Shown here: positions 11,113 to 61,096 of the stretch, piece by piece | Numbering within the stretch: position 1 is the stretch's first letter | Layout: the number at the start of each line of letters is the position of its first letter | Assembly: GCA_017992055.1 (NCBI GenBank) | Contig: JAGOPK010000002.1 | Location: 580,125 to 644,124, forward strand | Source: Burkholderiaceae bacterium | GTDB taxonomy: Bacteria; Pseudomonadota; Gammaproteobacteria; Burkholderiales; Burkholderiaceae_C | DNA length: 64,000 bases | Reading direction: 5' to 3' | Notes under the pieces: model-generated | The model's input: only the letters and a program-made list of their open reading frames with translations | Told to the model about the DNA's origin: nothing | Database searches by the model: none | Position numbers and translations under genes: made by a program

Positions 11113-11149
11113 CTGGCCACTGAGCCGCCAACGAGGAGCCCACCGCCCC

Positions 11150-11779: not shown

Positions 11780-11812
11780 GTCCGCGCCGGCCTGACCCGT
11801 CCTCCTTCCACC

Positions 11813-11835
11813 AAGGCCGCTGCTGAAGCGGCCTT
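11813..11835 (+). terminator. Hairpin terminator between the response regulator gene and folD
   Basis: A perfect 9-bp stem AAGGCCGCT / AGCGGCCTT with a 5-nt loop (GCTGA), followed by GTCGCTTTCT. It begins 34 bp after the regulator stop and ends 22 bp before the folD ATG, so it probably separates the two-component operon from folD. Confidence 0.6.
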
Positions 11836-11857
11836 GTCGCTTTCTGGAGTCCAGCCC

Positions 11858-12715
11858 ATGACCGCCCACAGCATCAGCGGCACCGCCCTGTCGGCACAGA
11901 TCCGCACCGAGGTGGCGCAGCGCGCCGCCGCCCTCAGCGCCCTCGGCCAGCGGCCCGGCCTGGCCGTGATCCTGGTCGGCGACGACCCGGCCTCGGCCGT
12001 CTATGTGCGCAACAAGGTCAAGGCCTGCGCCGAGGCCGGCTTCCATTCGGTGCTCGAGAAGTACGAGGCCGACCTGTCCGAAGAGGCCCTGCTGGCGCGC
12101 ATCCGCGCGCTGAACGACGATGCGGCCATCCACGGCATCCTGGTGCAGATGCCGCTGCCCCGGCACATCAACCCCCAGCGGGTGATCGAGACCATCGCCG
12201 ATGCCAAGGACGTGGACGGTTTCTCCATCCACTCCGCCGGCAGCCTGGCCAGCGGCCTGCCGGGCTTTCGCGCCTGCACGCCCTATGGCTGCATGAAGCT
12301 GATCGAGAGCACCGGCATCGACCTGCGCGGCAAGCATGCGGTGGTCATCGGCCGCAGCAACACCGTGGGCAAGCCCATGGCCCTGCTGCTGCTGCAGGCC
12401 AATGCCACGGTCACCGTCTGCCACAGCGCCACGCCCGACCTGGGCCTGCACACGCGCCAGGCCGATGTGGTGGTGGCCGCGGTGGGCCGGCGCAACACCG
12501 TCACCGCCGACATGGTCAAGCCCGGTGCCGTGGTCATCGACGTGGGCATGAACCGCAACGACGAGGGCAAGCTCTGCGGCGACGTGGACTTTGCCGGCGT
12601 CAGCCAGGTGGCCGGCTGGATCACGCCGGTGCCCGGCGGCGTGGGCCCGATGACCATCACCATGCTGCTGGTGAACACGCTGGAATCGGCCGAGCGCGCC
12701 GCCGCCGCGCAATGA
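11858..12715 (+). CDS. folD: Bifunctional methylene-THF dehydrogenase / methenyl-THF cyclohydrolase
   Basis: 285 residues, the family norm. FolD interconverts 5,10-methylene-, methenyl- and 10-formyl-tetrahydrofolate with NADP+. Visible signatures are [14 protein letters not shown] (with the catalytic lysine), ILVQMPLP, the nucleotide loop [11 protein letters not shown] and the C-terminal [14 protein letters not shown] eight codons upstream is possible, but the ATG at 11858 with GGAG upstream matches known N-termini. It is probably a single transcription unit, or reads into the peptidase gene 87 bp on. Confidence 0.97.
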
Positions 12716-24811: not shown

Positions 24812-25984
24812 TCACCAGCCGGCCAGCACCTCTTCGGCCAGCGCAAAGCCGGTGCTGGCACCGGTGCCGCTGGTGACCAGCACCACGCGCAGCGCATCGC
24901 CGGGTTGCAGCACCAGCGCATCCTCGCTGTGGCCCACCGGATAGTGGCCGATCCAGCGCTCGACCACGGTGGTGGCCGCCGGCTCGCCCAGGTCGAGCAG
25001 GGCCCGCAGCTCGCGCAGGATCAGGCCATCCACCGCCTCGCTGGCCGGCGCGGCATCGGCGGCGAACAGGCCACGCTCTTCAAATGCGCCGAAGGGCGCG
25101 GCCGCGTCGTCGGCGTGGTGGGAATCGCCGACCACCCAGCTGCCATCGGCGCTTTGCACCACGATCACATGCACGCCATGGGCCAGGCAGTCGCCGGCCT
25201 CCCGCTCCAGCGCCTGGCGCAGCGCCGCGGCGGCCGGCTGGGCGGCAAAGCCGCCATAGCGCACCAGGCTCAGATCGCCCAGCACCGGCGCCGGCAGCAC
25301 GGCGCCGGCCGGCGGGCGCAGGCGCAGCATCTGCAGCCGCGTCAGGCCCAGGCCATGGGCATCGAGCCAGGGCGCGGCCACGCCACCCAGCGCGGCCCCG
25401 GTACACAGCACCACCCGCTCGGCCTGCAGCCATCGGCGGGCGGTGCGCACGGCGGGCGGCTCGACGGCCAGCACCTCCTCGCCCCAGAAGAAGGCCACGC
25501 CATGGGCCTGCTGCAGCCAGGCGGCCAGGCGCGGCAGCGCGCTGCGCGACTCGACGCGCAGCTCGTGTGGCGAGCACAGCACGGCCTGGGTATCGGCGGC
25601 CAGCACCGGCGCCTGCCGGCGTGCGTCGGCGCCGGACAGCAGCGTGCAGCCCTGGCCCTGGGCACTGGCGGCAAACTGCTCCAGCACCGCCACCGCGGCC
25701 GGCCGCCGCGCGCTGATCCAGGCGCCCTGCTGCAGCACGGCGATGCCGGCGGCCGGCGCCAGCTCGGCCCAGACCTCGCGCGAGCGCCGTGCCCGCGGCC
25801 AGGCCTGGGCGCCCTGGCCGCTGACGGTGACAAAGCCGAAGTTGCGCACCGAGGCGCCGACGCAGCGCGCATCGCGCTCGACCACCGCCACGCGCCAGCC
25901 GCGGCGCACGCCGGCCAGCGCATGGGCCAGGCCGACGATGCCGGCGCCAACCACCAGCAGGTCGAACGGGCCCTCGGCGCTCAC
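24812..25984 (-). CDS. FAD-dependent oxidoreductase, TIGR03364 type, linked to aminophosphonate use
   Basis: 390 residues of glycine-oxidase/DAO-like flavoprotein. The N-terminal dinucleotide fold LLVVGAGIVGLAHALAG is followed by VGASVRNFGFV, and the C-terminus has VTSGTGASTGFALAEEVL. This form is the TIGR03364 family, repeatedly found in 2-aminoethylphosphonate operons and thought to oxidise an aminophosphonate or an N-substituted derivative. The start is a GTG that overlaps the HAD gene stop (GTGA). It is the last gene of the leftward phosphonate operon that begins with phnS. Exact substrate is inference. Confidence 0.85.
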   Translation of the reverse strand: MSAEGPFDLLVVGAGIVGLAHALAGVRRGWRVAVVERDARCVGASVRNFGFVTVSGQGAQAWPRARRSREVWAELAPAAGIAVLQQGAWISARRPAAVAVLEQFAASAQGQGCTLLSGADARRQAPVLAADTQAVLCSPHELRVESRSALPRLAAWLQQAHGVAFFWGEEVLAVEPPAVRTARRWLQAERVVLCTGAALGGVAAPWLDAHGLGLTRLQMLRLRPPAGAVLPAPVLGDLSLVRYGGFAAQPAAAALRQALEREAGDCLAHGVHVIVVQSADGSWVVGDSHHADDAAAPFGAFEERGLFAADAAPASEAVDGLILRELRALLDLGEPAATTVVERWIGHYPVGHSEDALVLQPGDALRVVLVTSGTGASTGFALAEEVLAGW

Positions 25985-26697
25985 GCCCCGGCCCCATGCA
26001 GGCCCAGCACCGGCCAGGCACGGGCCTGGGCCTCGGCGTGCAATCGGGCGTCGGGATCAACCACCACCGGCAGGCCCACGGCACACAGCAGCGGCAGGTC
26101 GTTGATCGAGTCGCTGTAGAAGCTGGCGCCGGCCAGGGCGGCTTCCACCGCCGCCTCGTCCAGGCCCCAACCCGAGCCGAGCGCAGCATCGGCCTGCGCC
26201 AGCCAGGCGCGCAGGCGCAGCGGCTTGCCGTCGCGCATGTTCGGCAGGCCGGCATTGCGGCCGGTGTAGCAGCCGTCCACGCACTCCAGCTCGGTGGCGA
26301 TCAGGTCGGCAAAGCCCAGGGCCTGGGCCGTGGGCTCGGTGATCAGGCGGTGGGTGGCGGTGGTCATCACCAGGCGGTGGCCGGCGCGGCGGTGGCGCTC
26401 GACCAGGGCGCGCGCGGACTCGGGGATGCGCGGCAGCACCTCCTCGACCAGGAAGCGCTGGCGCCAGGGCTGCCAGTGCGCCGGGCCATGGCCGGCCAGC
26501 AGGCCGGCATAGAAGCCGCAGAACTCGGCCACGCCGACCGCGCCGCTGCGGTAGCCGGCATCCATTTGCGCATTGCGCTGGCGCTGGCTCTCGGGCAGCA
26601 GGCCGTGGCGGATCAGGAACTCGCACCACAGCACATCGCTGTCGCCGGCCAGCAGCGTGTGGTCGAGGTCGAACAGGGCCAGCGGTGCAGGGCTCAT
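25981..26697 (-). CDS. HAD-IB (SerB-like) phosphatase in the phosphonate operon
   Basis: 238 residues. HAD motifs: I = LFDLDHTLLAGDSD, II = TTATHR, and IV = YSDSINDLPLL. This is the SerB/HAD-IB branch with a helical cap inserted after motif I, not phosphonoacetaldehyde hydrolase (PhnX), which belongs to another HAD branch with a catalytic cap lysine. It sits between eutC and the TIGR03364 gene with 4-bp overlaps on both sides. A phosphatase acting on phosphoethanolamine or a similar C2 phosphate ester would feed the neighbouring ethanolamine ammonia-lyase; that is inference. Confidence 0.85.
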   Translation of the reverse strand: MSPAPLALFDLDHTLLAGDSDVLWCEFLIRHGLLPESQRQRNAQMDAGYRSGAVGVAEFCGFYAGLLAGHGPAHWQPWRQRFLVEEVLPRIPESARALVERHRRAGHRLVMTTATHRLITEPTAQALGFADLIATELECVDGCYTGRNAGLPNMRDGKPLRLRAWLAQADAALGSGWGLDEAAVEAALAGASFYSDSINDLPLLCAVGLPVVVDPDARLHAEAQARAWPVLGLHGAGA

Positions 26698-27488
26698 CGC
26701 GCCAGCAGCTCCGTCTCGCTGTCGTCCTTCAGTGCGATGCCGGTGACGCGGCGGCGCAGCGCCTCGCGCAGCAGCCAGGCCAGGCGGCGCGCGGCCAGGT
26801 CGTAGGCCAGACCGCCGGGGCGGATGTTGCTGATGCAGTTGCGCTCGGCATCGCTGCGGCCCACGCAAGGGCTGAAGGTCAGGTAGGCGCCCAGGCTGTC
26901 GGGCGAGCTCAGGCCCGGGCGCTCGCCGATCAGCATCAGCGCGGCGCGTGCGCCCAGCAGCGCCCCCACCTCGTCGGCCAGGGCCACGCGGGCCTGGGTG
27001 GCGATGACCAGCGGCGCCAGCGTCGGTGCCGGGCCCGGGCTGCCGTCGAACACCGCACGCAGCGCCTGCAGCAGCGGCCGCACATGGCGCTGCACGGCCA
27101 CGGCCGACAGGCCATCGCCGGCCACCACCACCAGATCGGGCGGCGGTGAGGACGGCACAGGCGCCGCGGCCTGCAGCATGGCCACGCTGTCATCGTCCAG
27201 GCGGCGGCCCCAGTCGGGCCGGCGCAGATAGGCGTCGCGCGTGGTCGCGCGGCTGGCCACGGCCAGCGTGGCCCAGCCGTCCTGTTGCAGTTCGGCGGCC
27301 AGGGCGTCGCCATCCAGCGGCACATGCACCGCATCGCGGGCCTGGGCATGGGCGGCGGCAAAGCGCAGCAGCTCGTGCGTGGGCAGGCTGGTGCCGGCGC
27401 GGCCGAGCGCGATGCGCGCCGGCGTGTGGCGGCGCAGTTCGGCCCAGGGGTCGGGCGGCGGATCGACGCCCACCAGATCGTTGCTCAT
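26694..27488 (-). CDS. eutC: Ethanolamine ammonia-lyase, small subunit
   Basis: 264 residues; E. coli EutC has 295, so the N-terminal extension is short here. Recognisable segments are RIALGRAGTSLPTHELLRF, DLVVVAGDGLSAVAVQRH, LMLIGERPGLSSPDSLGAYL and RNCISNIRPGGL. With EutB it forms the adenosylcobalamin-dependent enzyme that converts ethanolamine to acetaldehyde and ammonia. It overlaps eutB by 4 bp upstream and the HAD gene by 4 bp downstream. No EutA reactivase or shell genes lie nearby. Confidence 0.95.
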   Translation of the reverse strand: MSNDLVGVDPPPDPWAELRRHTPARIALGRAGTSLPTHELLRFAAAHAQARDAVHVPLDGDALAAELQQDGWATLAVASRATTRDAYLRRPDWGRRLDDDSVAMLQAAAPVPSSPPPDLVVVAGDGLSAVAVQRHVRPLLQALRAVFDGSPGPAPTLAPLVIATQARVALADEVGALLGARAALMLIGERPGLSSPDSLGAYLTFSPCVGRSDAERNCISNIRPGGLAYDLAARRLAWLLREALRRRVTGIALKDDSETELLAR

Positions 27489-28885
27489 GCACCCGCTCCA
27501 TCGGCGGCGGCGGACAGGGCCAGCGCCAGCGGCGGCCGCGCCGCGGCCGGCAGCAGCCCGCCCTGCGCATCCGTCAGGCCCTGGCGCTGCAGCCAGGCCT
27601 CGAACTCGGGAGCGCGCTTCAGGCCCAGCAGCTGGCGCACGAACAGCGCGTCGTGGAACGAGGTGCTCTGGTAGTTCAGCATCACATCATCCGCGCCCGG
27701 CACGCCCATCATGAAGTTCAGCCCGCTGGCGGCCAGCAGCACCAGCAGGTTGTCCATGTCGTCGGAATCGGCCTCCGCATGGTTGGTGTAGCAGATGTCG
27801 CAGCCCATCGGCAGGCCCAGCAGCTTGCCGCAGAAATGGTCTTCCAGGCCGGCGCGCAGGATCTGCTTGCCGTCGTACAGGTACTCGGGGCCGATGAAGC
27901 CGACCACGGTGTTGACCAGCAGCGGCCGGTAGCGCCGCGCCGCGCCATACACCCGCGCCTCGATCGTCTGCTGGTCCACGCCATGGTGGGCATGGGCCGA
28001 CAGCGCACTGCCCTGGCCGGTCTCGAAATACATCAGGTTGTCGCCCAACGTGCCGCGCTTCAGCGCCAGCGCCGCGGCATGGGCTTCATCCAGCAGGGCC
28101 AGGCTGACACCGAAGCTCTTGTTCGCCGCTTCGGTGCCGGCAATCGATTGGAACACCAGGTCCACCGGCGCGCCCTGCTCGATGGCCTGCAGCGTATTGG
28201 TCACATGGGTCAGCACGCAGCTTTGCGTGGGCACCTGGTGGGTCTGGATCAGACCGTCGAGCTGCTTGAGCAGGCCCACCAAGGCCGGCACCGAATCCGC
28301 CGCCGGGTTGATGCCGATCACCGCATCGCCGGCGCCGTACATCAGGCCGTCCAGGATGCTGGCCAGGATGCCGGCCGGGCTGTCGGACGGGTGGTTGGGC
28401 TGCAGGCGCACGGCCAGGTGGCCGGGCAGGCCCAGGGTGTTGCGAAAGCGCGTGATCACGCGGCAGCGGCTGGCCACCAGCATCAGGTCCTGGTTGCGCA
28501 TCAGCTTGCTGACGGCGGCCACCATCTCGGGCATCAGGCCCGGCGCCAGCGCGGCCAGGGTCTCGGGCGTGGCGGCGTCGGACAGCAGCCAGTCGCGGAA
28601 AGCGCCCACCGTCAGGTGGGCCACCGGTTGAAAGGCCGCGGCATCGTGGCCGTCGATGATCAGGCGTGTGACCTCGTCGGCCTCGTAGGGCACGACCGCC
28701 TCGTTCAGAAAGCGCTGCAGCGGCACATCGGCCAGGGCCATGCGCGCGGCCACGCGCTGCTGGGCGCTGTGGGCCGCCACGCCGGCCAGTTCGTCGCCCG
28801 AGCGCGCCGGCGTGGCCTTGGCCAGCAGGTCGCGCAGGTCGGCGAAGGCGAAGGTTTCGCTGCCCAGCGTGGCGCGGTAGGCCAT
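27485..28885 (-). CDS. eutB: Ethanolamine ammonia-lyase, large subunit
   Basis: 466 residues (E. coli 453), forming the catalytic TIM barrel. Typical stretches are RLQPNHPSDSPAGILASILD, YGAGDAVIGINP, VFQSIAGTEAANKSFGV, GLPMGCDICYTNHAEAD and MMGVPGADDVMLNYQS. It starts only 10 bp after phnW, so ethanolamine ammonia-lyase is cotranscribed with the aminoethylphosphonate transaminase. This is not the usual eut-operon setting. The enzyme needs adenosylcobalamin; no cobalamin riboswitch is seen in the operon leader. Confidence 0.97.
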   Translation of the reverse strand: MAYRATLGSETFAFADLRDLLAKATPARSGDELAGVAAHSAQQRVAARMALADVPLQRFLNEAVVPYEADEVTRLIIDGHDAAAFQPVAHLTVGAFRDWLLSDAATPETLAALAPGLMPEMVAAVSKLMRNQDLMLVASRCRVITRFRNTLGLPGHLAVRLQPNHPSDSPAGILASILDGLMYGAGDAVIGINPAADSVPALVGLLKQLDGLIQTHQVPTQSCVLTHVTNTLQAIEQGAPVDLVFQSIAGTEAANKSFGVSLALLDEAHAAALALKRGTLGDNLMYFETGQGSALSAHAHHGVDQQTIEARVYGAARRYRPLLVNTVVGFIGPEYLYDGKQILRAGLEDHFCGKLLGLPMGCDICYTNHAEADSDDMDNLLVLLAASGLNFMMGVPGADDVMLNYQSTSFHDALFVRQLLGLKRAPEFEAWLQRQGLTDAQGGLLPAAARPPLALALSAAADGAGA

Positions 28886-28895
28886 GGCCCGGCTT

Positions 28896-30008
28896 TCAGC
28901 GCGGCTGGGTGGGAATGCCCATCTCGCGCAGCGTCTCGGCCACGGCGTGGACGGCTTGCTCCATCTCCAGCCGCGAGATCGCGCCGATGCAACCGACGCG
29001 GAAGGTCTCCACCGTGGTCAGCTTGCCGGGATAGAGCATGAAGCCGCGCTGCTTGGCCGCGGCATAGAAGCGCTTGAAGTCGTAGGCCGGGTGCTCGGGC
29101 GCATGGAAGGTGACGATGATCGGCGCCTGGTGCTCGGGCTTCAGGAAGGGCTTCAGGCCGATGGCCTGCATGCCGTCGATCAGCGTGCGGCAGTTGTCCT
29201 CGTAGCGCGCCAGGCGGGCGGCCTGGCCGCCTTCCTCGACGAACTGCGTGATGGCCTCGGCCAGCGCCACCACCACATGCGTGGGTGGGGTGAAGCGCCA
29301 CTGGCCGGTCTTCTCCATGTAGCTGTGCTGGTCGTGCAGGTCCATCGCCAGGCTCTGGCTGTTTCCGGCGCAGCCGTCCAGGATGGCCTTGCGGATGAAG
29401 ACGAAGCCCATGCCCGGCACGCCCTCCAGGCACTTGCCGCTGGCGGCGATCAGCGCATCGAAGCGCAGCTCGCGCGCATCGATGGGCAGGGCCCCCAGGC
29501 TGGACATGGCATCGACGATCAGGCCCTTGCCATGGCGCTCGCACACCGCGCCCACGGCATTCAGCGGGTTCAGCACGCCGGCACCGGTCTCGCAATGGAT
29601 CATCACCACATGGGTGATGCCGGGGTCCGCGCGCAGTTGTGCGTCCACGGCCTCGGCACACACCGGCGCATCCTCGGCAAAGCCCAGCACGCTGCAGCGC
29701 CGGCCCATCATCTGCGTGAGCCTGGCGGCACGCTTGCAGTAGGCGCCGTTGTCCAGCACCAGCACATGGCCGTCGCGCGGCACCACGGTGGCCACGGCCG
29801 CCTCGACGCTGAAGGTGCCGCTGCCCTGCAGCGGCACCACCACATGGCTGTGCTGGCCATGCACGATGTCCAGCAAACGGCTGCGCACGCCGGCGGTGAC
29901 AGCATTGAAGTCGGCGTCCCACGAGCCCCAGTCGTGCAGCATGGCCAGCTTGGTGCGCAGCGTGGTGGTCAGCGGTCCGGGGGTCAGCAGGATGCGGTCG
30001 CGGTCCAT
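28896..30008 (-). CDS. phnW: 2-aminoethylphosphonate:pyruvate aminotransferase
   Basis: 370 residues, the PhnW length. A class-V PLP transaminase that moves the amino group of 2-aminoethylphosphonate to pyruvate, giving phosphonoacetaldehyde and alanine. Signatures are the N-terminal [35 protein letters not shown] and the PLP-lysine region [22 protein letters not shown] lies 6 nt before the ATG. It follows the transporter genes by 17 bp and precedes eutB by 10 bp. Its product is taken on by PhnY and PhnA from the divergent arm. Confidence 0.97.
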
Positions 30009-30025
30009 CGCGGTCTCCTTGGGGT

Positions 30026-31729
30026 TCAGGCCTTCCAGCCTTGGGTGCGGCGGTCCACCCACCAGGCCAGCAGGCCGAACAGCGCCATCGCCAGCGCCGA
30101 GGCGGCGGTGATCAGCACCGCCATCGCGGCGGCGGGGCCGATCTCGCCGGCTTCGTCGAGGTTCAGGATGGCGATGGCCGCGACCTTGGTTTCGGGCGTG
30201 TAGAGGAACACCACGGCCGAGATCGTGGTCATGGCGTTGATGAAAAAATAGCGCGCGATGTCCACCAGGGCCGGCGTGCAGATCGGCAGCGTGACACGCC
30301 GGAAGGTGACCCAGAACGGCACCTTCAGCGAAGCCGACACGGCCTCGAACTCGGCGTCCAGTGCCTTCAGGGCGGTCACCGCCGTCAGGTGGCCGGTGGT
30401 GTAGAAATGGGCGATGGTGCACAGCGTCAGCAGCGCCATCGTGTGGTACAGCCCGTTCAGCGGATTGCCCGGCGCATTGAAGAAGAAGATGTAGCCCAGG
30501 CCCAGCACCAGGCCGGGCACGGCCATCGGCAGCATGGCCAGCAGGCGCACGGCGCTGCGCAGCGGGCCCGCGCCATCGGTCTTTTCCAGCAGGTAGGCGC
30601 CTGCAAACACCGCGGCCGTGCCGAACACGGCCGTGCCGGCGGCCATGCTCAGGCTGTTGACGAAGGCCGCGCCCACCTCGGCATCCACCAGGCCCATCGC
30701 ATAGTGGTTCAGCGTGGGCGCCAGGTTGTAGGGCCAGAAGCTGGCGAAGGATGCAAACACGGCCATGCCCATCATCGCCAGCACCAGGGCCGCGATCAGC
30801 GCGCAGTACAGCGTGGCCAGCGCATCGCGCCAGGGCTTGCGCGCCGGGCGGTAAGGCACGGCGCGGGCGGTGAGCAAGGCCGTCTGGCGGCCGGCCACCC
30901 AGCGGTCGACCGCAAAGGTCAGCACCGCCGGCGCCAGCAGCAGCAGGGCCACCACCGCGCCGCGCTGGAAGTCCTGCTGGCCGATGACCAGCTTGAAGAC
31001 ATCGGTGGCCAGCATGTTGAAGTTGCCGCCGATGACCTTGGGGATGCCGAAGTCGGTGACCACCAGGGTGAAGCTGACCAGGGCGGCCGAGATCAGGCCG
31101 TACTTGGCGCCCGGCAATGTGATGGTGAAGAAGCGCCGCCAGGTGCTGGTGCCCATGGCCGCGGCGGCCTCGTACAGCCGGCCGTCGGCGGTGTTCAGCG
31201 CGGTGACCAGGATCATCAGCGCATGCGGAAACACCGCAAAGCACTCGGCCACCACGATGCCCGGCGCGCCGTAGATGGACGCTATGCCCAGGCCCTGCAT
31301 CCAGGCCTTGAGCACGCCCTGGTTGCCAAACCAGTAGATCAGCGAGATCGCCGACAGCAGCGACGGCGCCAGCAGCGGCAGCAGGGTGATGCCGCGCCAC
31401 AGCGGCTTGGCCGGCAGGCGCGTGCGCCGCAGCGCATAGGCAAAGCCGAAGGCCAGCGGCACGGTGATGACGGTGACCAGGGCCGACACCCAGACGCTGT
31501 TGGCCAGCGAATCCAGCAGCGCCGGCGTTTGCGCATAGGCAATGAAGTTGGCCAGGCCGACCCAGTGGCCCTGGGCGTCCTGCAGGGCCTGGCCCAGGAT
31601 GGCCAGCAACGGCGCCGCCAGGAACACCAGCAGGGCCAGCAGCACCGCGGCCAGGGCCGCATGGGCGGCGTACTGGGTGGGATCGGTGCGCAGGCGCAGA
31701 TCGGGCGCCACCCGCAGTCCGATGCTCAT
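30026..31729 (-). CDS. phnU: 2-aminoethylphosphonate ABC transporter permease (two permease halves fused)
   Basis: 567 residues with about twelve transmembrane helices arranged as two binding-protein-dependent permease halves (about 1-290 and 300-567). Each half carries an EAA-type loop: [20 protein letters not shown] in the first, [20 protein letters not shown] in the second. Salmonella uses two proteins, PhnU and PhnV; here, as in many Burkholderiales, one chain does both jobs. GAGGGG precedes the ATG at 31729; the open frame runs 96 bp further upstream but has no homology there. Confidence 0.92.
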
Positions 31730-31761
31730 GTCGGCCCCTCGTCCGCCGGGTACGACGGCCG

Positions 31762-31776
31762 ATCCCCCAAGGGGAT
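31762..31776. repeat. Small palindrome in the phnT-phnU gap
   Basis: The 88-bp gap between phnT and the permease gene, unusually long for this operon, contains ATCCCC-CAA-GGGGAT, a 6-bp dyad with a 3-nt loop. It is flanked by further GC-rich half-palindromes (GACGGCCGAT, GGATGGCGGTC). It has the look of an extragenic palindromic (REP-like) unit that could stabilise the upstream mRNA. Only one copy is in the window. Confidence 0.4.
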
Positions 31777-31817
31777 GGCGGTCCGGCTTGGGAGCGGCCC
31801 GGCGCTCGTCCCGCCCC

Positions 31818-32909
31818 TCATGCAAACACCCTCAGCCGCTCGGGCAGCAGCTTCAGCGGCAGGCGCGAGCCGATCTGCAGCCGCTGCTCGGCCAGGAAGT
31901 TCAGCGACAGCACCACGTCCAGCCGCTGGTCGGCCAGGGCCTCGCCGCCCACGGTGACCAGGCAGTACGAGCCCAGGAACTCGATGCGCTCGATGGCGGC
32001 CTCGAAGACATTGGCGTCGCCCTCGGCGATGGGCCGGGCCAGCACGTCCTCGGGGCGCAGGTAGACGGTGACCTGCTCGCCGGCCGCGCCATGGCCGGCC
32101 AGACCGTTGCCAACGAAGGGCGTGGCGCCGATGCGCAGCCGGCCATCGGCCTGGCGCTGGGCCTGCACCGCATTGATGCGGCCGACGAAGTCGGCCACGA
32201 AGGGCGTGGCCGGCTCGCGGTAGACCTGCATCGGCGTGCCCACCTGCTCGATCGCGCCCTGGTTCATCACCACGATGCGGTCGGCCACCGACAGCGCCTC
32301 TTCCTGGTCGTGCGTGACCATGATGGTGGTCACGCCCAGCTGGCGCTGCAGGGCCTTGATCTCCTGGCGCAGGTGCACGCGCACGATGGCGTCCAGCGCC
32401 GACAGCGGCTCGTCCAGCAGCAGCAGGCCCGGCGAGGTGGCCAGTGCCCGCGCCAGGGCCACGCGCTGCTGCTGGCCGCCCGACATCTGGGCCGGGAACT
32501 TGGCCGCGCTGCCGGGCAGGCCCACCAGGGCCAGCAACTGCTCGACGCGCTGGCGCACCTGCTCGCGCGGCTGGCGCCGATTCACCAGGCCATAGGCCAC
32601 GTTGTCGGCCACGCTGAGGTTGGGGAACAGCGCATACGACTGGAACACGATGCCGTAGTCGCGTCGCGCCGGCGGCAGCGTGCTGATCTCGCGCCCGTCC
32701 TGCCACAGCCGGCCGGCGCTCTGCGCCTCCAGCCCGGCGATCACCCGCAGCAGCGTGGTCTTGCCGCAGCCCGAGGGACCGAGGAAGCAGACGAACTCGC
32801 CCTTGGCGATGCTGAGATCAATGCCCTTCAGCGCCTCGAAGCTGCCGTAGTGCTTGCGCACCCCGTCCAGCCTCAGGTAGGCCGCAGGCGGCGGCACCGG
32901 CAGGTTCAC
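31818..32909 (-). CDS. phnT: 2-aminoethylphosphonate ABC transporter ATP-binding protein
   Basis: 363 residues. ABC ATPase with Walker A GPSGCGKTT, signature MSGGQQQRVALARAL, Walker B LLLLDEPLSALD and the switch histidine THDQEE. A C-terminal TOBE/MalK-like regulatory domain follows (about 240-363). The frame is open to a GTG at 32945, but the GTG at 32909 overlaps the phnS stop as GTGA, the coupling used throughout this operon, and was chosen. It energises uptake through the fused permease. Confidence 0.92.
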   Translation of the reverse strand: MNLPVPPPAAYLRLDGVRKHYGSFEALKGIDLSIAKGEFVCFLGPSGCGKTTLLRVIAGLEAQSAGRLWQDGREISTLPPARRDYGIVFQSYALFPNLSVADNVAYGLVNRRQPREQVRQRVEQLLALVGLPGSAAKFPAQMSGGQQQRVALARALATSPGLLLLDEPLSALDAIVRVHLRQEIKALQRQLGVTTIMVTHDQEEALSVADRIVVMNQGAIEQVGTPMQVYREPATPFVADFVGRINAVQAQRQADGRLRIGATPFVGNGLAGHGAAGEQVTVYLRPEDVLARPIAEGDANVFEAAIERIEFLGSYCLVTVGGEALADQRLDVVLSLNFLAEQRLQIGSRLPLKLLPERLRVFA

Positions 32910-33958
32910 CGCTTTTCCGACTTGGCGCTGTAGCGCTTGTTCCACTCGGCCAGCACGCGCTCGCGGTTCTCGGCGGCGACGTTGAAGTCCAGCTTCACCA
33001 GGCGCGCCTCATAGTCCTTGGGCACGTTGGCCAGCGGCGCGGCCACGCCGGGCTGGGCGGTGATGGCGAAGTTCTTGCCGTACAGCAGCATCGCGTCCTT
33101 GCTGCTGGCCCAGTCGGCCAGCTTCTTGGCCGCGTCCAGCTTCTTCGTGCCCTTGTGGATGGCAAAGGCCTCCAGGTCCCAGCCCAGGCCTTCCTTCGGG
33201 AACACCAGGTCGATGGGCGCGCCCTTGGCCTTGTTGCTGTTGGCGCGGTACTCGAAGCTGATGCCGACCACGTACTCGCCGCTGGCGGCCATGTTGCAGG
33301 GCTTGCTGCCGCTGTGCGTGTACTGGGCGATGTTCTCGTGCAGGCCGTCCATGTACTTCCAGCCGCCGCCCTTGCCGTTGTCGTCGCCCCACAGCGCCAG
33401 CCAGGCCGTGACGTCGAAGTAGCCGGTGCCCGAACTGGCCGGGTTGGGCATCACGATCTGGCCCTTGTAGGCGGGCTTGAGCAGGTCCTTCCAGGTCTCG
33501 GGCTTGGGGATGCCCTTCTTCTGCGCCTCCACGGTGTTGAAGCACAGGGTGGCGCCCCACACGTCCATGCCGAACCAGGCCGGCGGATTTTTCTTGTCGC
33601 GGTACTGCGACATGATGGCATCGATGTTCAGCGGCTTGTACGGCTCGAGCATGCCGTTCTTGTCCAGCAGGGCCAGGCTGGACGCGGCCACGCCCATCAC
33701 CGCATCGGCCTGCGGATTGGCCTTCTCGGCCAGCAGCTTGGCGGTGATGACGCCGGTGGAATCACGCACCCACTTGATTTCGATGTCGGGGTGGACCTTG
33801 TTGAAGCCTTCCTGATAGGCCTTGAGCTGGTCGGTCTCGAGTGCGGTGTAGACCAGCAGCTGGGCCTTTTGCGCGGCGGCCGGGCCGGCGGCCAGGGCCA
33901 GCAGCGCCGCAGCGCAGACAAGGGTGGAAACGGTGAACGGGCGGCGCGGCAGCGTCAT
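32906..33958 (-). CDS. phnS: 2-aminoethylphosphonate ABC transporter periplasmic binding protein
   Basis: 350 residues. A signal peptide (about 1-29, AAGPAAA-QK) precedes an iron(III)/2-aminoethylphosphonate-type periplasmic binding fold (LLVYTALETDQLKAY, WVRDSTGVITAKLLAE, MPNPASSGTGYFDVTAWL). CAGGAG lies 6 nt before the ATG at 33958. It is first in the leftward operon and faces the GntR gene across a 199-bp control region. Confidence 0.93.
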   Translation of the reverse strand: MTLPRRPFTVSTLVCAAALLALAAGPAAAQKAQLLVYTALETDQLKAYQEGFNKVHPDIEIKWVRDSTGVITAKLLAEKANPQADAVMGVAASSLALLDKNGMLEPYKPLNIDAIMSQYRDKKNPPAWFGMDVWGATLCFNTVEAQKKGIPKPETWKDLLKPAYKGQIVMPNPASSGTGYFDVTAWLALWGDDNGKGGGWKYMDGLHENIAQYTHSGSKPCNMAASGEYVVGISFEYRANSNKAKGAPIDLVFPKEGLGWDLEAFAIHKGTKKLDAAKKLADWASSKDAMLLYGKNFAITAQPGVAAPLANVPKDYEARLVKLDFNVAAENRERVLAEWNKRYSAKSEKR

Positions 33959-34074
33959 GGTTTTCTCCTGGCTGGTTCCCGCTTTTGGGTGGGGGAACGG
34001 ACGTTGGGACACAAACCGCTGAGCATGGGCCGCCGATCGTGACGGCACGATGACCGGCTGCGGGCTGGGCTTCA

Positions 34075-34149
34075 TCTTCTGCGGCTCCGTATCAGTTTGT
34101 CAACGGTTTTTGGCAGATTGTTGACAATCTACGATCTGGCGCGTCCAAT
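34075..34149. promoter_or_regulatory. Divergent phosphonate promoters with a perfect-dyad operator
   Basis: Near the right end of the 199-bp gap lies a perfect 16-bp dyad AGATTG-TTGA-CAATCT (34115-34130), containing TTGTTGACAA, a likely operator for the adjacent GntR/FCD regulator. TTGACA within it (34121-34126) could be the -35 of the rightward operon with a weak TCCAAT at 34144. On the other strand TTGACA (34103-34098) can serve phnS with AGAAGA/GAAGAT near 34075-34080. The dyad overlaps the rightward -35 and lies close to the leftward one, as expected for one repressor controlling both arms. Confidence 0.6.
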
Positions 34150-34157
34150 CGATCTCC

Positions 34158-36201
<2,044 letters not shown>

Positions 36202-36214
36202 GCGGAGGCTGACG

Positions 36215-37648
36215 ATGGAACCCCGCCATGAGGGCCTGCGCATCGCCGGCGAGACCGTGGGCGCCGGCCGGCCCGAGCACATCGCCGTGCGCCATCCCTA
36301 CAGCGGCCAGCTCGTGGGCACGGTGCCCAAGGCCACGCTGGCCGAGGTGCGGCGTGCCTACGACATCGCGCGCGGCTACAAGGCCAGGCTGTCGCGCTTC
36401 GAGCGCAGCGCCATCCTCAACCGCGCCGCCGACGCGGTGCGCACGCGGCACGACGAGATCGCCACGCTGATCACCGCCGAATCGGGCCTGTGCCTGAAGG
36501 ACAGCCTGTACGAGACCGGCCGCGTGGCCGACGTGCTGATGTTCGGCGCCATCGAGGTGCTGAAGGACGACGGCCAGACCTTCAGCTGCGACATCACGCC
36601 GCATGGCCGCAAGCGCCGCGTCTACACCCAGCGCGACCCGCTGCTGGGCGTGATCACCGCCATCACGCCGTTCAACCACCCGATGAACCAGGTGGCGCAC
36701 AAGGTCGTGCCCAGCATCGCCACCAACAACCGCATGGTGCTCAAGCCCAGCGAGAAGGTGCCGCTATCGGCCCTGCTGTTTGCCGACCTCCTGTATGCCG
36801 CCGGCCTGCCACCCGAGATGCTGAGCGTGCTCACCGGCGACCCGCGCGAGATTGCCGACGAGCTGCTGACCCACCCGGCGGTGGACCTGATCACCTTCAC
36901 CGGCGGCGTGGCCATCGGCAAGCACATCGCGGCCCGCGCCGGCTACCGGCGCATGGTGCTGGAGCTGGGCGGCAACGACCCCATCATCGTGATGGACGAT
37001 GCCGACCTCGACGAAGCCAGCACGCTGGCGGTCAGCGGCAGCTACAAGAACTCGGGCCAGCGCTGCACCGCGGTCAAGCGCATGCTGGTGCATGAGAAGG
37101 TGGCGGCGGCCTTCACCGATGCGGTGGTCGAGAAGACCCGGGCCTGGAAATACGGCGATCCCTTCGATGCCGGCAATGACATGGGCACGGTCATCGACGA
37201 GGCTGCGGCGCGGCTGTTCGAGCAGCGCGTGGACCAGGCCATCGCCCAGGGCGCGCGCCTGCTCACCGGCCACCGGCGCGAAGGCGCGCTGTACGCGCCC
37301 ACGGTGATCGACCGCGTGCGCCCCGAGATGACCTTGGTGCACGAAGAGACCTTCGGCCCGGTGTCGCCGATCATCACTTTCAGCTCGGTGGACGATGCCA
37401 TCGCCATCGTCAACGGCACGGCCTACGGCCTGTCGTCGTCGCTGTGCACGCAGCGGCTGGATGTCATCACCCGCTTCGTCGACGAGTTGCACGTGGGCAC
37501 GGTGAACGTGCGCGAGGTGCCCGGCTACCGCCTGGAGCTGACACCCTTTGGCGGTATCAAGGATTCCGGCCTGGGCTACAAGGAGGGCGTGCAGGAAGCG
37601 ATGAAGAGCTTCTGCAACACCAAGACCTACTCTCTGCCGTGGAACTGA
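36215..37648 (+). CDS. phnY: Phosphonoacetaldehyde dehydrogenase
   Basis: 477 residues of the aldehyde dehydrogenase superfamily. The catalytic cysteine is in GSYKNSGQRCTAVKR, the general-base glutamate in MVLELGGNDP, and the NAD loop in FTGGVAIGK. With phnW and phnA beside it, the PhnY identity (phosphonoacetaldehyde to phosphonoacetate, NAD+) is strong. It should not be confused with the unrelated 2-oxoglutarate hydroxylase also called PhnY that partners PhnZ. GCGGAGG precedes the ATG. 13 bp after phnA. Confidence 0.95.
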   Translation: MEPRHEGLRIAGETVGAGRPEHIAVRHPYSGQLVGTVPKATLAEVRRAYDIARGYKARLSRFERSAILNRAADAVRTRHDEIATLITAESGLCLKDSLYETGRVADVLMFGAIEVLKDDGQTFSCDITPHGRKRRVYTQRDPLLGVITAITPFNHPMNQVAHKVVPSIATNNRMVLKPSEKVPLSALLFADLLYAAGLPPEMLSVLTGDPREIADELLTHPAVDLITFTGGVAIGKHIAARAGYRRMVLELGGNDPIIVMDDADLDEASTLAVSGSYKNSGQRCTAVKRMLVHEKVAAAFTDAVVEKTRAWKYGDPFDAGNDMGTVIDEAAARLFEQRVDQAIAQGARLLTGHRREGALYAPTVIDRVRPEMTLVHEETFGPVSPIITFSSVDDAIAIVNGTAYGLSSSLCTQRLDVITRFVDELHVGTVNVREVPGYRLELTPFGGIKDSGLGYKEGVQEAMKSFCNTKTYSLPWN

Positions 37649-37673
37649 CGCTGTCCGGCCACCGAGGCCCGCC

Positions 37674-39395
37674 TTGATCCACCTGCTCAACCTGCTCGCG
37701 GCGATTGCGCTGCTGGTCTGGGGCACCTACCAGGTGCGCACCGGCGTGCTGCGCGTGGCCGGCGAGAACCTGCGCCATGTGCTGGCGCGCAGCATGGGCC
37801 ACCGCGGCTCGGCTCTGCTGGCCGGCCTGGGCGTGACCAGCCTGGTGCAGAGCAGCACCGCCACCGGCCTGATCGTCGCCAGCTTCGTCGGCCAGCGCCT
37901 GGTGCCCACGGCCGCGGCGCTGGCGGTGATGCTGGGTGCCGATGTTGGCTCGGCGCTGATGGCGGTGGTGTTCTCGTTCGACCTGTCCTGGCTGTCGCCG
38001 CTGCTGATCGTGGTCGGCGTGGCGCTGTTCATCGCCGGCCAGAGCGGGCCTGGCCTGGGCGGACGCATCGGCCGCGTGCTGATCGGCCTGGGGTTGATCA
38101 CGCTGGCGCTGCAGCTGATCGTCGCCGCCACCCGGCCGCTGACCGAAAGCCCGGCCGTGCGCGCCCTGCTGGTGGCCCTGCCCAACGAGGTGCTGCTGGA
38201 CATCGTGGTCGGCGCCGCGCTGACCGTGGCCGCCTATTCCAGCCTGGCCATCGTGCTGCTGACGGCCGCGCTGGCCTCGCAGGGCCTGCTGCCGGCCGGC
38301 GTGGCCCTGGGCCTGGTGCTGGGCGCCAACCTGGGCAGCGGCCTGCTGGCCATCATCGCCACCAGCCGCGACAGCCCGGCCACGCGGCGGCTGCCGCTGG
38401 GCAATCTGCTGTTCAAGCTGATCGGCATTGCCGCGGCCATGCCGCTGCTGGGCTCGGCCCATGTGCTGCTGCAGGACCAGGCCTGGCTGCCGACGGTGCA
38501 CGAGCAGGTGGTGGCCTTCCACCTCGGCTTCAACCTGGTGCTGGCGGCGGTGTTCATCGGCTTCACCGCACCCATCGCCCGCCTGGTGGAGCGCTGGCTG
38601 CCCGAGGCCAAGGCCGATGCCGCCCAGCAGCGCACCAGCCACCTGGACCCGGTGGCCCTGGCCACGCCCAGCCTGGCCATCAGCTGCGCCGCCCGCGAGG
38701 CCCTGCACCAGGCCGACATCGTCGAGGCCATGCTGCGCGGCATGCTTTCGGTGCTGCGCGACAACGACCTGGAGCTGTCCGAGCGCCTGCGCCAGCGCGA
38801 CGACGAGGTGGACCGGCTGTACAGCGCGATCAAGTTCTACCTGACGCAGATCTCGCGCGAGGCGCTGAGCGAGCGCGAGGGCCGGCGCTGGACCGACATC
38901 GTCAGCTTCACCATCAACATGGAGCAGATCGGCGACGGCATCGAGCGTGTACTGATCGACATCGAGGACAAGAAGATCCGGCCGCAGCGGCGCTTCTCGG
39001 ATGCCGGCATGGCCGAGATCTGCCATCTGCACGAGCGCCTGTTGGCCAATCTGCGCCTGGGCATGAGCGTCTTCCTCGACGGCCATGCCCGCGACGCGCG
39101 GCGGCTGCTGGAGGAGAAGGCGCGCTTTCGCGACCTGGAGCATGCCTATGCCGCCAACCACATCGCCCGCCTGCAGGACAACACCGCGCAGAGCATCGAG
39201 ACCAGCTCGCTGCACCTGGACCTGCTGAGCGAGCTCAAGCGCATCAACTCGCACATCTGCTCCATCGCCTACCCCATCCTCGAAAGCCGCGGCGCCCTGG
39301 CCGCGACGCGGCTGCAGGCCGGCAGCAACGAACCCACCGACTGGGCCGAGCTGGCCGAGCCGGCCCCTCCCTCGCCCCCCCGCAAGCCCCGATGA
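37674..39395 (+). CDS. Na+/Pi cotransporter family protein with PhoU-like tail
   Basis: 573 residues. Eight or more transmembrane helices in two repeats carry the QSS signatures (SLVQSSTATGLIVASF and the degenerate AYSSLAIVLLTAAL). A soluble PhoU-like helical domain follows (about 340-540). The family (NptA/YjbB) moves phosphate with Na+; E. coli YjbB exports phosphate. Start is a TTG with GAGG upstream; the first ATG lies well inside helix-coding sequence. It lies 25 bp after phnY and overlaps the HD gene by 4 bp. In this operon it may vent phosphate freed by PhnA. Confidence 0.88.
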   Translation: MIHLLNLLAAIALLVWGTYQVRTGVLRVAGENLRHVLARSMGHRGSALLAGLGVTSLVQSSTATGLIVASFVGQRLVPTAAALAVMLGADVGSALMAVVFSFDLSWLSPLLIVVGVALFIAGQSGPGLGGRIGRVLIGLGLITLALQLIVAATRPLTESPAVRALLVALPNEVLLDIVVGAALTVAAYSSLAIVLLTAALASQGLLPAGVALGLVLGANLGSGLLAIIATSRDSPATRRLPLGNLLFKLIGIAAAMPLLGSAHVLLQDQAWLPTVHEQVVAFHLGFNLVLAAVFIGFTAPIARLVERWLPEAKADAAQQRTSHLDPVALATPSLAISCAAREALHQADIVEAMLRGMLSVLRDNDLELSERLRQRDDEVDRLYSAIKFYLTQISREALSEREGRRWTDIVSFTINMEQIGDGIERVLIDIEDKKIRPQRRFSDAGMAEICHLHERLLANLRLGMSVFLDGHARDARRLLEEKARFRDLEHAYAANHIARLQDNTAQSIETSSLHLDLLSELKRINSHICSIAYPILESRGALAATRLQAGSNEPTDWAELAEPAPPSPPRKPR

Positions 39396-39934
39396 TCACC
39401 GTCGACGAGATCGAGATCCTGTTCCTCACCCGCGGCCACGAGCAGTACGCCGGCGAGCCCGTGACCCAGCTGCAGCATGCGCTGCAGTCGGCGCAGCGGG
39501 CCGAGCAGGAGGGCGCCGACGACGAGCTGGTCACCGCCGCCCTGCTGCACGACCTGGGCCATCTGGTGCAGGACCTGGGCGAATCGCCCACCACCCGCGG
39601 CATCGACGACCTGCACCAGTACATCGCCCTGCCCTTTCTGCGCGGCCGCTTTTCCGACCGCGTGCTGGGTGCCATCCAGGGCCATGTGGATGCCAAGCGC
39701 TACCTCTGCGCCACGCGGCCCGGCTACCACGCCGCGCTGTCGGCCGATTCGCAGCGCAGCCTGCTGCTGCAGGGCGGTGTGTTCGACGCCGACCAGGCCG
39801 CCGCCTTCATCGCCCGGCCCGGTGCCGAAGAAGCCGTGCGCCTGCGCCTGTGGGACGACCTGGCCAAGGCGGCCGACGCCCACACGCCGCCGCTGGCGCA
39901 TTACCTGGACCGCGCGCGACGCTGCGCGCGGTGA
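39392..39934 (+). CDS. PhnZ-like HD-domain oxygenase, phosphonate-operon type
   Basis: 180 residues of the phosphonate-associated HDIG family (TIGR03276), which includes the mixed-valent di-iron oxygenase PhnZ. From memory of the PhnZ structure, its ligands H34, H58, D59, H80, H104, D161 and gate residues Y24/E27 have counterparts here: H29, H53, D54, H75, H98, D155 or D156, and Y19/E22 in QYAGEPVTQLQHALQ; K102 also matches. PhnZ cleaves 2-amino-1-hydroxyethylphosphonate to glycine and phosphate. The 2-oxoglutarate hydroxylase that makes this substrate is not in the window. The ATG overlaps the upstream stop (ATGA). Confidence 0.9.
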   Translation: MITVDEIEILFLTRGHEQYAGEPVTQLQHALQSAQRAEQEGADDELVTAALLHDLGHLVQDLGESPTTRGIDDLHQYIALPFLRGRFSDRVLGAIQGHVDAKRYLCATRPGYHAALSADSQRSLLLQGGVFDADQAAAFIARPGAEEAVRLRLWDDLAKAADAHTPPLAHYLDRARRCAR

Positions 39935-40815
39935 GCGGCCTGAGCTGGCCCATCGTCGCCGCCGTGCTCTGCGGCGCGCTGCTGCATGCCGGCTGGAACG
40001 CCCTGGTCAAGTCCGGCGGCGACAAGGCGCTGGACACGGCCCTGGTGCACTTTCTCGGCGCCGTCGTGGCCCTGCCGCTGCTGCTGTGGGCCGGCCTGCC
40101 GCAGGCCGGCAGCCTGCCCTTCATCGCCGCCTCGCTGGCCATCCACATCGGCTATTACGTGGCCCTGGCCGGCGCCTACCAGCATGGCGAGCTGGGCCTG
40201 ACCTATCCCATCATGCGCGGCTTCGCGCCGCTGCTGGTGGCGCTGGGCAGCGCCAGCCTGATCGGCGAGTCGCCCAGCGCCGCGGCCTGGCTGGGCATCG
40301 TCGGCATCACGCTGGGCGTGGCCCTGGTCGGCCTGGCCCATCCGGGCGAGGCCCTGCACCATGGCAAGGCCCTGGCCTATGCCTTCAGCAACGCGGCGAT
40401 CATCGCCGTCTACACCGTGGTCGACGGCCTGGGCGTGCGCCACGAGGTGGCCGCGGGCGGCAGCGCGCTGCGCTATGTGCTGCTGCTGTTCGTGCTCGAC
40501 GGCCTGCCCTATCCGCTGCTGCTGTTGTGGCACCGCGGCCTGCTGCGCACCCAGGGCCGGCCGCAGCTGTGGGCCTATGCGCGCCAGCGCTGGAAGCTGG
40601 CGGCGCTGGGCGGCAGCGCCTCCATCGGCTCGTATGCCATCGCGCTGTGGGCCATGACGCGCGCGCCGGTGGCCAGCGTGGCCGCGCTGCGCGAGACCTC
40701 GGTGCTGTTCGCCACGCTGCTGGGCACCTGGCTGCTGAAAGAGGCCTTCGGCTGGCAGCGTGCCATCGGCACCGTGGTCATCGTGGCCGGCGTGATGGCG
40801 CTGCGCCTGGGCTGA
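39931..40815 (+). CDS. EamA/DMT membrane protein linked to phosphonate use
   Basis: 294 residues, ten predicted transmembrane helices in two EamA halves. The setting matches the phosphonate-associated DMT family TIGR03340, found beside phn genes. It starts with GTG overlapping the HD gene stop (GTGA) and so closes the rightward operon. The last 38 bp overlap a convergent exonuclease gene. Possible role: export or uptake of a small phosphonate-derived compound; substrate unknown. Confidence 0.85.
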   Translation: MSGLSWPIVAAVLCGALLHAGWNALVKSGGDKALDTALVHFLGAVVALPLLLWAGLPQAGSLPFIAASLAIHIGYYVALAGAYQHGELGLTYPIMRGFAPLLVALGSASLIGESPSAAAWLGIVGITLGVALVGLAHPGEALHHGKALAYAFSNAAIIAVYTVVDGLGVRHEVAAGGSALRYVLLLFVLDGLPYPLLLLWHRGLLRTQGRPQLWAYARQRWKLAALGGSASIGSYAIALWAMTRAPVASVAALRETSVLFATLLGTWLLKEAFGWQRAIGTVVIVAGVMALRLG

Positions 40816-60909: not shown

Positions 60910-60931
60910 GTCGCCGGCCCAGGCCGGCGAC
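60910..60931 (+). terminator. Hairpin before the TPP riboswitch
   Basis: A perfect 10-bp dyad GTCGCCGGCC-CA-GGCCGGCGAC lies 31 bp after the ferredoxin reductase stop and 3 bp before the riboswitch. No T-run. It may end the fdxA transcript or form a 5' stem on the riboswitch RNA. Confidence 0.4.
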
Positions 60932-60933
60932 AT

Positions 60934-61024
60934 CCGCTGGGGGTGCTGCCCCGGTCCACGGACCGGGCGGCTGAGAGAGTCCCCTTGAACCTGATTGAGG
61001 TAATCCTCGCGCAGGGAAGCAGCC
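60934..61024 (+). promoter_or_regulatory. TPP riboswitch (THI element)
   Basis: The conserved THI elements are all present in order: GGGGGTGCTGCC, a variable arm (CCGGTCCACGGACCGG), GGCTGAGAGAGTCC, CCTTGAACCTGAT, then the GTAATCC...GCGCAGGGAAGC half. GCTG at 60936-60939 can pair with CAGC at 61020-61023 as P1. Thiamin pyrophosphate binding would turn down the downstream TonB receptor. No terminator follows; a CCATGG-GTTCT-CCATGG hairpin (61034-61050) and the ribosome site at 61086 suggest control of translation. Confidence 0.93.
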
Positions 61025-61096
61025 TGACCCCGTCCATGGGTTCTCCATGGTGCGTTCCAGTGTCTGTGCACCTGCCATCGCCTTTGAAAGCAAACG

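Follow-up and report, generated by a model that had tools for sequence, protein, structure and literature searches.

Ethanolamine ammonia-lyase genes in a divergent phosphonate locus of a Burkholderiaceae bacterium: a candidate exchangeable ethanolamine module behind phnW

Organization of the locus

The stretch of DNA analyzed here, referred to as the window, comprises 64,000 nt from a Burkholderiaceae bacterium (GCA_017992055.1, contig JAGOPK010000002.1, positions 580,125 to 644,124; genome label G000) and contains a phosphonate locus that includes the ethanolamine ammonia-lyase genes eutB and eutC. Open reading frame (ORF) coordinates and profile searches placed 14 genes in two divergent arms at 24812-40815 (Table 1). 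The leftward arm reads phnS-phnT-phnU-phnW-eutB-eutC-HAD-TIGR03364, and the rightward arm reads phnR-phnA-phnY-NaPi-HD-EamA. A curated family cut-off was passed by every gene except EamA, which scored under TIGR03340, and HAD, which matched a subfamily model only. This gene order, with tight spacing, had been described in a first-pass annotation of the sequence, and it was borne out: all of the named genes were found, mostly over their cut-offs, and the spacing exceptions are an 88-bp interval between phnU and phnT and the phnS/phnT overlap, which depends on an uncertain start codon. Coordinates and sequence give a gap of 10 bp between phnW and eutB, and 4-bp overlaps were found at eutB/eutC, eutC/HAD, HAD/TIGR03364, NaPi/HD and HD/EamA. 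The short phnW-eutB gap and the overlaps downstream of it leave little space for a promoter between phnW and eutB.

Table 1. Features of the phosphonate locus, with positions in the window and profile scores
Feature	Position	Strand	Evidence
TIGR03364 FAD-dependent amine oxidase, PbfD-type (N-methyl-AEP/AEP to phosphonoacetaldehyde)	24812..25984	-	TIGR03364 359.6 bits, cut-off 285.1
HAD-IB phosphatase, proposed phosphoethanolamine phosphatase	25981..26697	-	TIGR01490 113.6 bits, cut-off 98.3
eutC, ethanolamine ammonia-lyase small subunit	26694..27488	-	NF003971 314.2 bits, cut-off 230; PF05985 297.1 bits
eutB, ethanolamine ammonia-lyase large subunit	27485..28885	-	NF011649 716 bits, cut-off 554; PF06751
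phnW, 2-aminoethylphosphonate:pyruvate transaminase	28896..30008	-	NF010006 571.9 bits, cut-off 296; TIGR03301 482.8 bits, over cut-off
phnU, 2-AEP ABC transporter permease	30026..31729	-	TIGR03262 796.4 bits, cut-off 593.25
phnT, ATP-binding subunit; start codon uncertain, overlaps phnS	31818..32945	-	TIGR03265 506.8 bits, cut-off 457.7
phnS, substrate-binding protein	32906..34075	-	TIGR03261 499 bits, cut-off 392.75
31-bp inverted repeat between the arms, proposed PhnR operator	34097..34127		two 8-bp perfect arms, 15 bp apart
phnR, GntR/FCD regulator	34158..34994	+	TIGR03338 286.4 bits, cut-off 271.5
phnA, phosphonoacetate hydrolase	34987..36201	+	TIGR02335 602.3 bits, cut-off 407.55
phnY, phosphonoacetaldehyde dehydrogenase	36215..37648	+	TIGR03250 853.8 bits, cut-off 635.65
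Na/Pi symporter with PhoU domain	37674..39395	+	NF037997 109.1 bits, cut-off 50; PF02690, PF01895
PhnZ-like HD oxygenase	39392..39934	+	TIGR03276 232.2 bits, cut-off 214.6
EamA-type membrane protein	39931..40815	+	PF00892 over cut-off; TIGR03340 223.4 bits, below cut-off 288.15

The joint presence of phnW, phnY and phnA, each over its cut-off, identifies a phnWAY cluster for 2-aminoethylphosphonate (AEP). The TIGR03364 oxidase, the HD oxygenase, eutBC and the HAD phosphatase had all been regarded as extras for which this route has no need. That assessment stands for eutBC and HAD, which are new additions; the oxidase and the HD oxygenase, by contrast, have been described before as accessories of such clusters. 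PbfD1 of A. baumannii, annotated as TIGR03364, converts N-methyl-AEP, and AEP less well, to phosphonoacetaldehyde in the account given of that enzyme in PMC10590968. The published survey of AEP clusters lists phnZ in 24 of 75 phnWAY clusters and never places PbfA and PhnZ in one cluster (Table 1 of PMC8154272), and PhnZ is the known consumer of (R)-1-hydroxy-AEP (PMC8154272). The window TIGR03364 protein can be assigned as PbfD-type by a score over cut-off within an AEP cluster; its gene was found in two of the four loci in which eutB directly follows phnW (the window and L246). The window HD protein passes TIGR03276 and is thus PhnZ-type, with a substrate that is predicted only.

No cobalamin riboswitch was detected in the window at the gathering threshold, and the matches there were one thiamin pyrophosphate (TPP) riboswitch and one tRNA. 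The TPP riboswitch (60929-61034, + strand, 61 bits, over the gathering score) lies 5' of an ORF at 61097-63316, the product of which has an N terminus resembling that of an exported protein and is perhaps involved in thiamin uptake.

Occupants of the position behind phnW

The first-pass annotation had called for a neighborhood survey of the eutB-phnW pairing, and the pairing did recur, in two layouts. Among 299 genomes of the family, EutB was present in 89, PhnW in 58 (57 over cut-off and one, G226, just below) and both in 15. The two genes adjoined or lay approximately 6 kb apart in one cluster in 6 of these 15 genomes (G000, G011, G171, G258, G180 and G075); by our arithmetic, if the genes were scattered at random over a 5-Mb genome, far fewer than one linked case would be expected. 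In type A, eutB stands directly behind phnW (G000, G011, G171 and L064, the last from genome_contigs; L062 is the G171 contig). In type B, found in three genomes of one genus (G258, G180 and G075), eutBC lies behind EamA on the other arm, approximately 6 kb from phnW, and the loci carry phnX, with no phnY, phnA or HAD in the stretches fetched. The EutB proteins of the two types belong to different tree clades and type B PhnW groups with phnX loci; two captures are thus the most economical explanation. Among genomes outside the family in which both genes occur, none of 12 from the order and none of 13 from the phylum showed linkage, although contig breaks could hide some cases, and the pairing was not seen as a general bacterial feature. 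Among the nearest 80 EutB loci from genome_contigs, several of which are on short contigs, only two (L062 and L064) were phn-linked. In the genomes sampled, the phnW-eutB pairing is confined to this family.

The neighborhoods of the other 57 family phnW genes, the window and L064 were then compared using 22 reference proteins. A glutamine synthetase (GS)-like ligase was encoded downstream of phnW, on the same strand and within 9.5 kb, in 34 of 58 loci from 22 genera; four loci cut by contig ends (L261, L271, L275 and L252), where this slot is wholly or partly unseen, were counted as not GS. The slot GS-like proteins are at least 76% identical to that of G227, a member of the window's genus. 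An iron-dependent alcohol dehydrogenase accompanied the ligase in 30 of the 34 GS-type loci, an aldehyde dehydrogenase in 29, a PuuD-like hydrolase in 28 and a HAD phosphatase in 21. Downstream sequence exceeded 9 kb in 29 of the GS-type loci; 26 of these had all four enzymes and 19 had HAD. Hidden Markov model assignments, made for G227 only, were PF00120, PF00465, Peptidase_C26 and PF00171; none of the four G227 enzymes reached a curated NCBIfam cut-off among the matches listed, and their substrates are predicted. Against solved structures, the G227 GS-like protein gave best scores of 262 and 233 bits, the next being 169. One of these top structural relatives, 5dm3, is presumably the product of a Chromohalobacter gene beside that for the ethanolamine-binding protein Csal_0678.

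The four activities fit a gamma-glutamylethanolamide route, by analogy with described sets: a ligase step, alcohol oxidation, aldehyde oxidation and release of glycine and glutamate. Such an enzyme set has been proposed downstream of GlnA4 in Streptomyces (PMC6529630), and in Phaeobacter MED193, which has an ethanolamine operon, the same set is raised on phosphorylethanolamine (PMC10132767). Three GS-type loci have a permease gene between phnW and GS; for the two that were scanned, the best NCBIfam model was the ethanolamine permease, with scores (360 and 372.8 bits) that fall slightly short of the cut-off of 381.75. In addition, G227 encodes a full ethanolamine permease (G227:C55:418140-419486; TIGR00908, 627 bits) and has no eutB, which fits ethanolamine use via the GS route. 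The GS-type operon contains a tandem pair of PuuD-like hydrolase genes in three loci of genus g98 (L263, L254 and L245).

Type A loci, of which there are four, have eutB-eutC between phnW and HAD, and no GS block was seen there. The PhnW tree places the eut-type clade (support 98/91) inside a 33-row clade (97/94), the rest of which consists of 27 GS-type and 2 contig-cut loci. Both arrangements occur in the window's genus: G143 and G227 are GS type, G000 and G011 are eut type, and G296 has eutB without PhnW. As judged from gene order and phylogeny, eutBC stands in place of the putative ethanolamine module in the same slot, with an orthologous HAD kept.

The GS module and eutB also excluded one another across genomes. 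No eutB was found anywhere in the 34 GS-type genomes, compared with 15 of 24 other PhnW genomes (Fisher, 4e-8) and 89 of 265 other family genomes (Fisher, 4e-6); the genus-level value was 3e-4. Elsewhere in the order, 48 PhnW genomes were searched for both GS and eutB: 10 had a GS at 65% identity or above, and eutB was present in none of these 10 but in 12 of the other 38. GS lay within 10 kb of phnW in 5 of the 10, and on the same strand in 3, so the GS-phnW pairing extends beyond the family. Weaker GS matches from the order and phylum (46-50% identity; G311, G541, G413 and G693) were not assigned to this operon type.

The inverted repeat between the two arms recurs: 29 of 38 phnS-phnR intergenic regions, the window's among them, contain a version that differs from the window's arms at three positions or fewer, compared with none of 1564 background stretches. 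It was present alike in eut-type loci (the window, L064 and L246) and GS-type loci; type B loci carry a different short repeat. From its position and recurrence, the repeat is a plausible candidate for a PhnR operator serving both arms.

The HAD phosphatase and EutBC

The operon HAD scored 213.7 bits against the histidinol phosphatase (HolPase) model HolPasePseu (NF052360), below the cut-off of 280. The histidinol phosphatase of G000 itself lies elsewhere (G000:C16:290300, 288.9 bits), and a HolPase over cut-off was located away from the operon in each of five genus members tested, G000 included. The operon HADs of G000, G011, G143 and G227 (for example, L225 9208-9876) scored 212-241 bits against the HolPase model and would thus be easily misannotated as histidinol phosphatases. 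In a tree of 40 rows (L268 was too short and was dropped), operon HADs formed one clade of 25 rows (100/99) apart from the HolPases. The explanation that the operon HAD is the organism's histidinol phosphatase was rejected in view of the separate HolPase over cut-off and these separate clades. Two rows labeled GS, L266 and L255, are not GS-type operon HADs: L266 has no GS gene, and the L255 match, which is unlinked and lies on the opposite strand, groups among the HolPases. The four eut-type HADs (97/97) were nested in a set with GS-type HADs (87/98, bootstrap below 95). Ten positions split operon HADs (at least 22 of 24) from HolPases (at least 11 of 12) in a count that left out L214, L215, L255, L266 and L268, and all ten are common to both operon types, save S for T in one eut-type copy.

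HAD was retained in all four phnW-eutB loci, and its counterparts in the 21 GS-type loci are orthologous. Because it is a frequent partner of two unrelated ethanolamine modules and is not a HolPase, the operon HAD is most simply a putative phosphoethanolamine phosphatase. The phosphate released in the proposed reaction would fit the Na/Pi symporter on the other arm. After HAD, G227 and G143 have a gene for an AstE/AspA-type deacylase (PF24827), and another follows HAD in G011 (loci L225 9955-10920, L224 and L142 5077-6033).

Both ethanolamine ammonia-lyase subunits are present in the window and over their curated cut-offs, which places them in this enzyme family, and the eutB of the window was the single match to PF06751 in its own genome. 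Substrate contacts in E. coli EutB, which we take to be Arg160, Gln162, Asn193, Glu287, Phe329 and Asp362, correspond to R160, Q162, N193, E288, F330 and D363 of the window protein in an alignment to 3abo. In an alignment of 120 EutB sequences, 7 phn-linked and 113 unlinked, all six residues were identical in 7/7 linked and 113/113 unlinked copies. At 205 columns the unlinked copies are at least 95% conserved, and none of these columns deviated in all four phnW-eutB copies. The sole position peculiar to the phnW-eutB type was A196, which is fixed there and occurs in 4 of 113 unlinked copies. The nearest unlinked EutB (L063) is 85% identical to that of the window, compared with 86-87% for the linked type A relatives, and the window protein, its type A relatives and L063 fall in one 14-row clade (Shimodaira-Hasegawa-like approximate likelihood ratio test support of 98, quick tree), the named members of which are mostly Sphaerotilaceae and Comamonadaceae. 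In L063 (3028-6009; metagenome-assembled genome RIFCSPHIGHO2_12_FULL_69_20), eutB lies behind a gene that by eye resembles an acyl-CoA synthetase, not behind phnW. On these alignments, EutBC looks like an ordinary ethanolamine ammonia-lyase that was recruited locally and recently.

No Eat permease (TIGR00908) was found beside eutBC; the best match in the window's genome scored 39.5 bits, with a cut-off of 381.75, and was on another contig. None of the five phn-linked genomes tested, G000 and G011 among them, had Eat over cut-off, which may hint that ethanolamine would arise inside the cell or enter otherwise. A homologue of the aldehyde dehydrogenase ExaC was over cut-off in G000, away from the locus (923.4 bits, cut-off 900), and also in G011.

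Proposed pathway, alternatives and relation to known systems

AEP, with its C-P bond, and phosphoethanolamine, with its C-O-P bond, are head-group amines of lipids and polysaccharides. We consider it fairly probable that the locus is one operon pair that salvages AEP and, via HAD, phosphoethanolamine, with exchangeable ethanolamine modules and probable control by PhnR. Gene identities, slot occupation, HAD orthology, module exclusion, the EutB residues and the repeat found in most loci are the sequence observations behind this proposal; from them we infer the substrate of HAD, phosphoethanolamine uptake, co-transcription and binding of PhnR to the repeat. The PhnSTU transporter would import AEP and, presumably, phosphoethanolamine. 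AEP would pass through PhnW, PhnY and PhnA to acetate and phosphate, with N-methyl-AEP joining via the TIGR03364 oxidase and hydroxy-AEP via the PhnZ-like HD oxygenase. Phosphoethanolamine would be dephosphorylated by the operon HAD to ethanolamine, which B12-dependent EutBC would split into acetaldehyde and ammonia, and the acetaldehyde could be oxidized in trans by the ExaC homologue. Here, eutBC would be a late replacement of a gamma-glutamylethanolamide module, through which glycine would be formed from the same ethanolamine. The suggestion in the first-pass annotation that a family of C2 amino compounds passes through the operon is supported by the frequent GS-like ligase in the slot, the orthologous HAD and the lack of eutB in GS-type genomes. 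The same observations support its conservative pathway as far as the predicted HAD-to-EutBC route to acetaldehyde; the last step, which it had assigned to PhnY, does not need that enzyme given an ExaC-type dehydrogenase elsewhere. A wider version, which we put forward tentatively at a little short of even chances, is that a widespread undescribed regulon joins AEP and phosphoethanolamine catabolism through one transporter, one PhnR operator, a HAD family dedicated to phosphoethanolamine and an exchangeable cassette behind phnW that leads either through gamma-glutamyl intermediates to glycine or through EutBC to acetaldehyde.

Several observations weigh against the proposed salvage of both compounds. 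The type B capture lacks both HAD and an inverted repeat of the window type; in 9 of the 38 regions, among them those of G011 (type A, 6 mismatches) and all three type B loci, the repeat is either absent or a poor match. HAD and the ethanolamine module are not strictly coupled, because HAD is lacking from 10 of the 29 GS-type loci for which over 9 kb of downstream sequence is available (13 of all 34 have none in reach). One locus, L266 (G126, 9345-12116), has the order phnW-HAD-phnX with no ethanolamine module; its HAD is distant and may have phosphorus supply as its sole role. The exclusion counts lack phylogenetic independence: the PhnW tree, with L261, L271, L275 and the short L278 set aside, offers only 2-3 independent contrasts, and those that differ go the expected way but are so few that a sign test cannot reach significance. 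The GS search in the family covered the surroundings of phnW only, and contig ends truncate four of the 24 other loci. EutB is not wholly free of change on the alignment, given that the window and L062, both type A, deviate at columns 118 and 387 and all three type B copies at columns 229 and 351; other deviations are confined to one or two linked copies. The lack of Eat is weak evidence because 4 of the 9 tested genomes with unlinked eutB lack the permease as well. Finally, uptake of phosphoethanolamine by such a transporter is a prediction, and the term is missing from the main text of the AEP transporter paper PMC8316502.

Some of the same observations would be expected if eutBC handled only free ethanolamine, as one of several co-occurring C2 amines, and HAD acted on some other substrate with no phosphoethanolamine step. 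Type B loci, the long GS-type loci that lack HAD, and in particular L247 and L249, which combine an Eat-like permease with no HAD in reach, are all in line with this explanation. We nevertheless regard it as unlikely, since neither G000 nor G011 has Eat over cut-off, HAD overlaps eutC by 4 bp and is kept in every phnW-eutB locus, and an orthologous HAD recurs in most GS-type loci. Neutral juxtaposition, in which eutBC came to lie behind phnW by chance in one ancestor with no functional tie, is considerably less probable. Such an origin would be consistent with the restriction of the pairing to one family, with the grouping of type A as one clade in the PhnW and HAD trees and with the lack of linkage in the 25 genomes outside the family that have both genes. 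It does not readily explain two captures at different positions, behind phnW and behind EamA, with EutBs from different parts of the tree, nor the tight overlaps, the analogous enzymes in the same slot elsewhere and retention in four loci with EutBs that are 86-87% identical to that of the window.

The bolder model of the first-pass annotation was that EutBC deaminates a hydroxylated aminophosphonate. 1-Hydroxy-2-aminoethylphosphonate (HAEP), for example, is a vicinal amino alcohol like ethanolamine, and EutBC would then be a B12 counterpart of PbfA. The position of eutB directly behind phnW is otherwise all that points this way, and the pocket comparison covered six residues. Altered substrate residues, as expected of a HAEP ammonia-lyase, were not found: the six are unchanged in all seven linked copies, no highly conserved column deviates throughout the phnW-eutB copies, the one peculiar position is shared with a few unlinked copies and an unlinked EutB is nearly as similar to the window protein as its linked relatives are. 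Other occupants of the slot look like ethanolamine enzymes, and a PhnZ-like gene is already in the cluster, whereas PbfA and PhnZ share no cluster in the table of PMC8154272. We therefore rejected this candidate function and consider a changed substrate hardly credible. Salvage of AEP and phosphoethanolamine remains our preferred reading. If it is true, some 'phosphonate' operons and the PhnSTU transporter would be partly phospholipid-salvage systems, HAD genes resembling those for histidinol phosphatases would be something else, and a single operon slot would decide whether ethanolamine is processed with or without B12.

The enzymes are individually of known kinds, and what appears to be new is their combination and the exchangeable cassette. 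A full-text literature search, in which subscription journals are thinly covered, returned nothing joining phosphonate, ethanolamine ammonia-lyase and phnW. Neither operon type was found in the titles or abstract starts among the matches listed for phosphonate or AEP with gamma-glutamyl, GS, ethanolamine or phosphoethanolamine, and the term EutB is missing from the main texts of PMC10590968 and PMC12366243.

The locus can be compared with four known systems. It has phnW, phnY, phnA, the TIGR03364 oxidase and the PhnZ-like HD protein in common with phnWAY clusters that carry phnZ or pbfD, and differs from them by eutBC and the HAD phosphatase, which are placed between phnW and the oxidase. With the Eat-eutBC operons of proteobacteria it shares EutB and EutC of the ordinary type; unlike them, it has no Eat over cut-off in the genome, a gap of only 10 bp to phnW and a location within a phosphonate operon. 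The operon HAD belongs to the same subfamily as the HAD histidinol phosphatases (NF052360) and shares the HAD motifs, but it scores below their cut-off, forms a separate clade, differs at the ten diagnostic positions and occurs in a genome with its own HolPase. The sister operons have a GS-like ligase, alcohol and aldehyde dehydrogenases and an amide hydrolase in common with the gamma-glutamylethanolamide pathway of GlnA4 and Phaeobacter MED193; they differ in their location behind phnW, in the PuuD-like type of the hydrolase and in the iron-dependent alcohol dehydrogenase, whereas the window has eutBC at that position.

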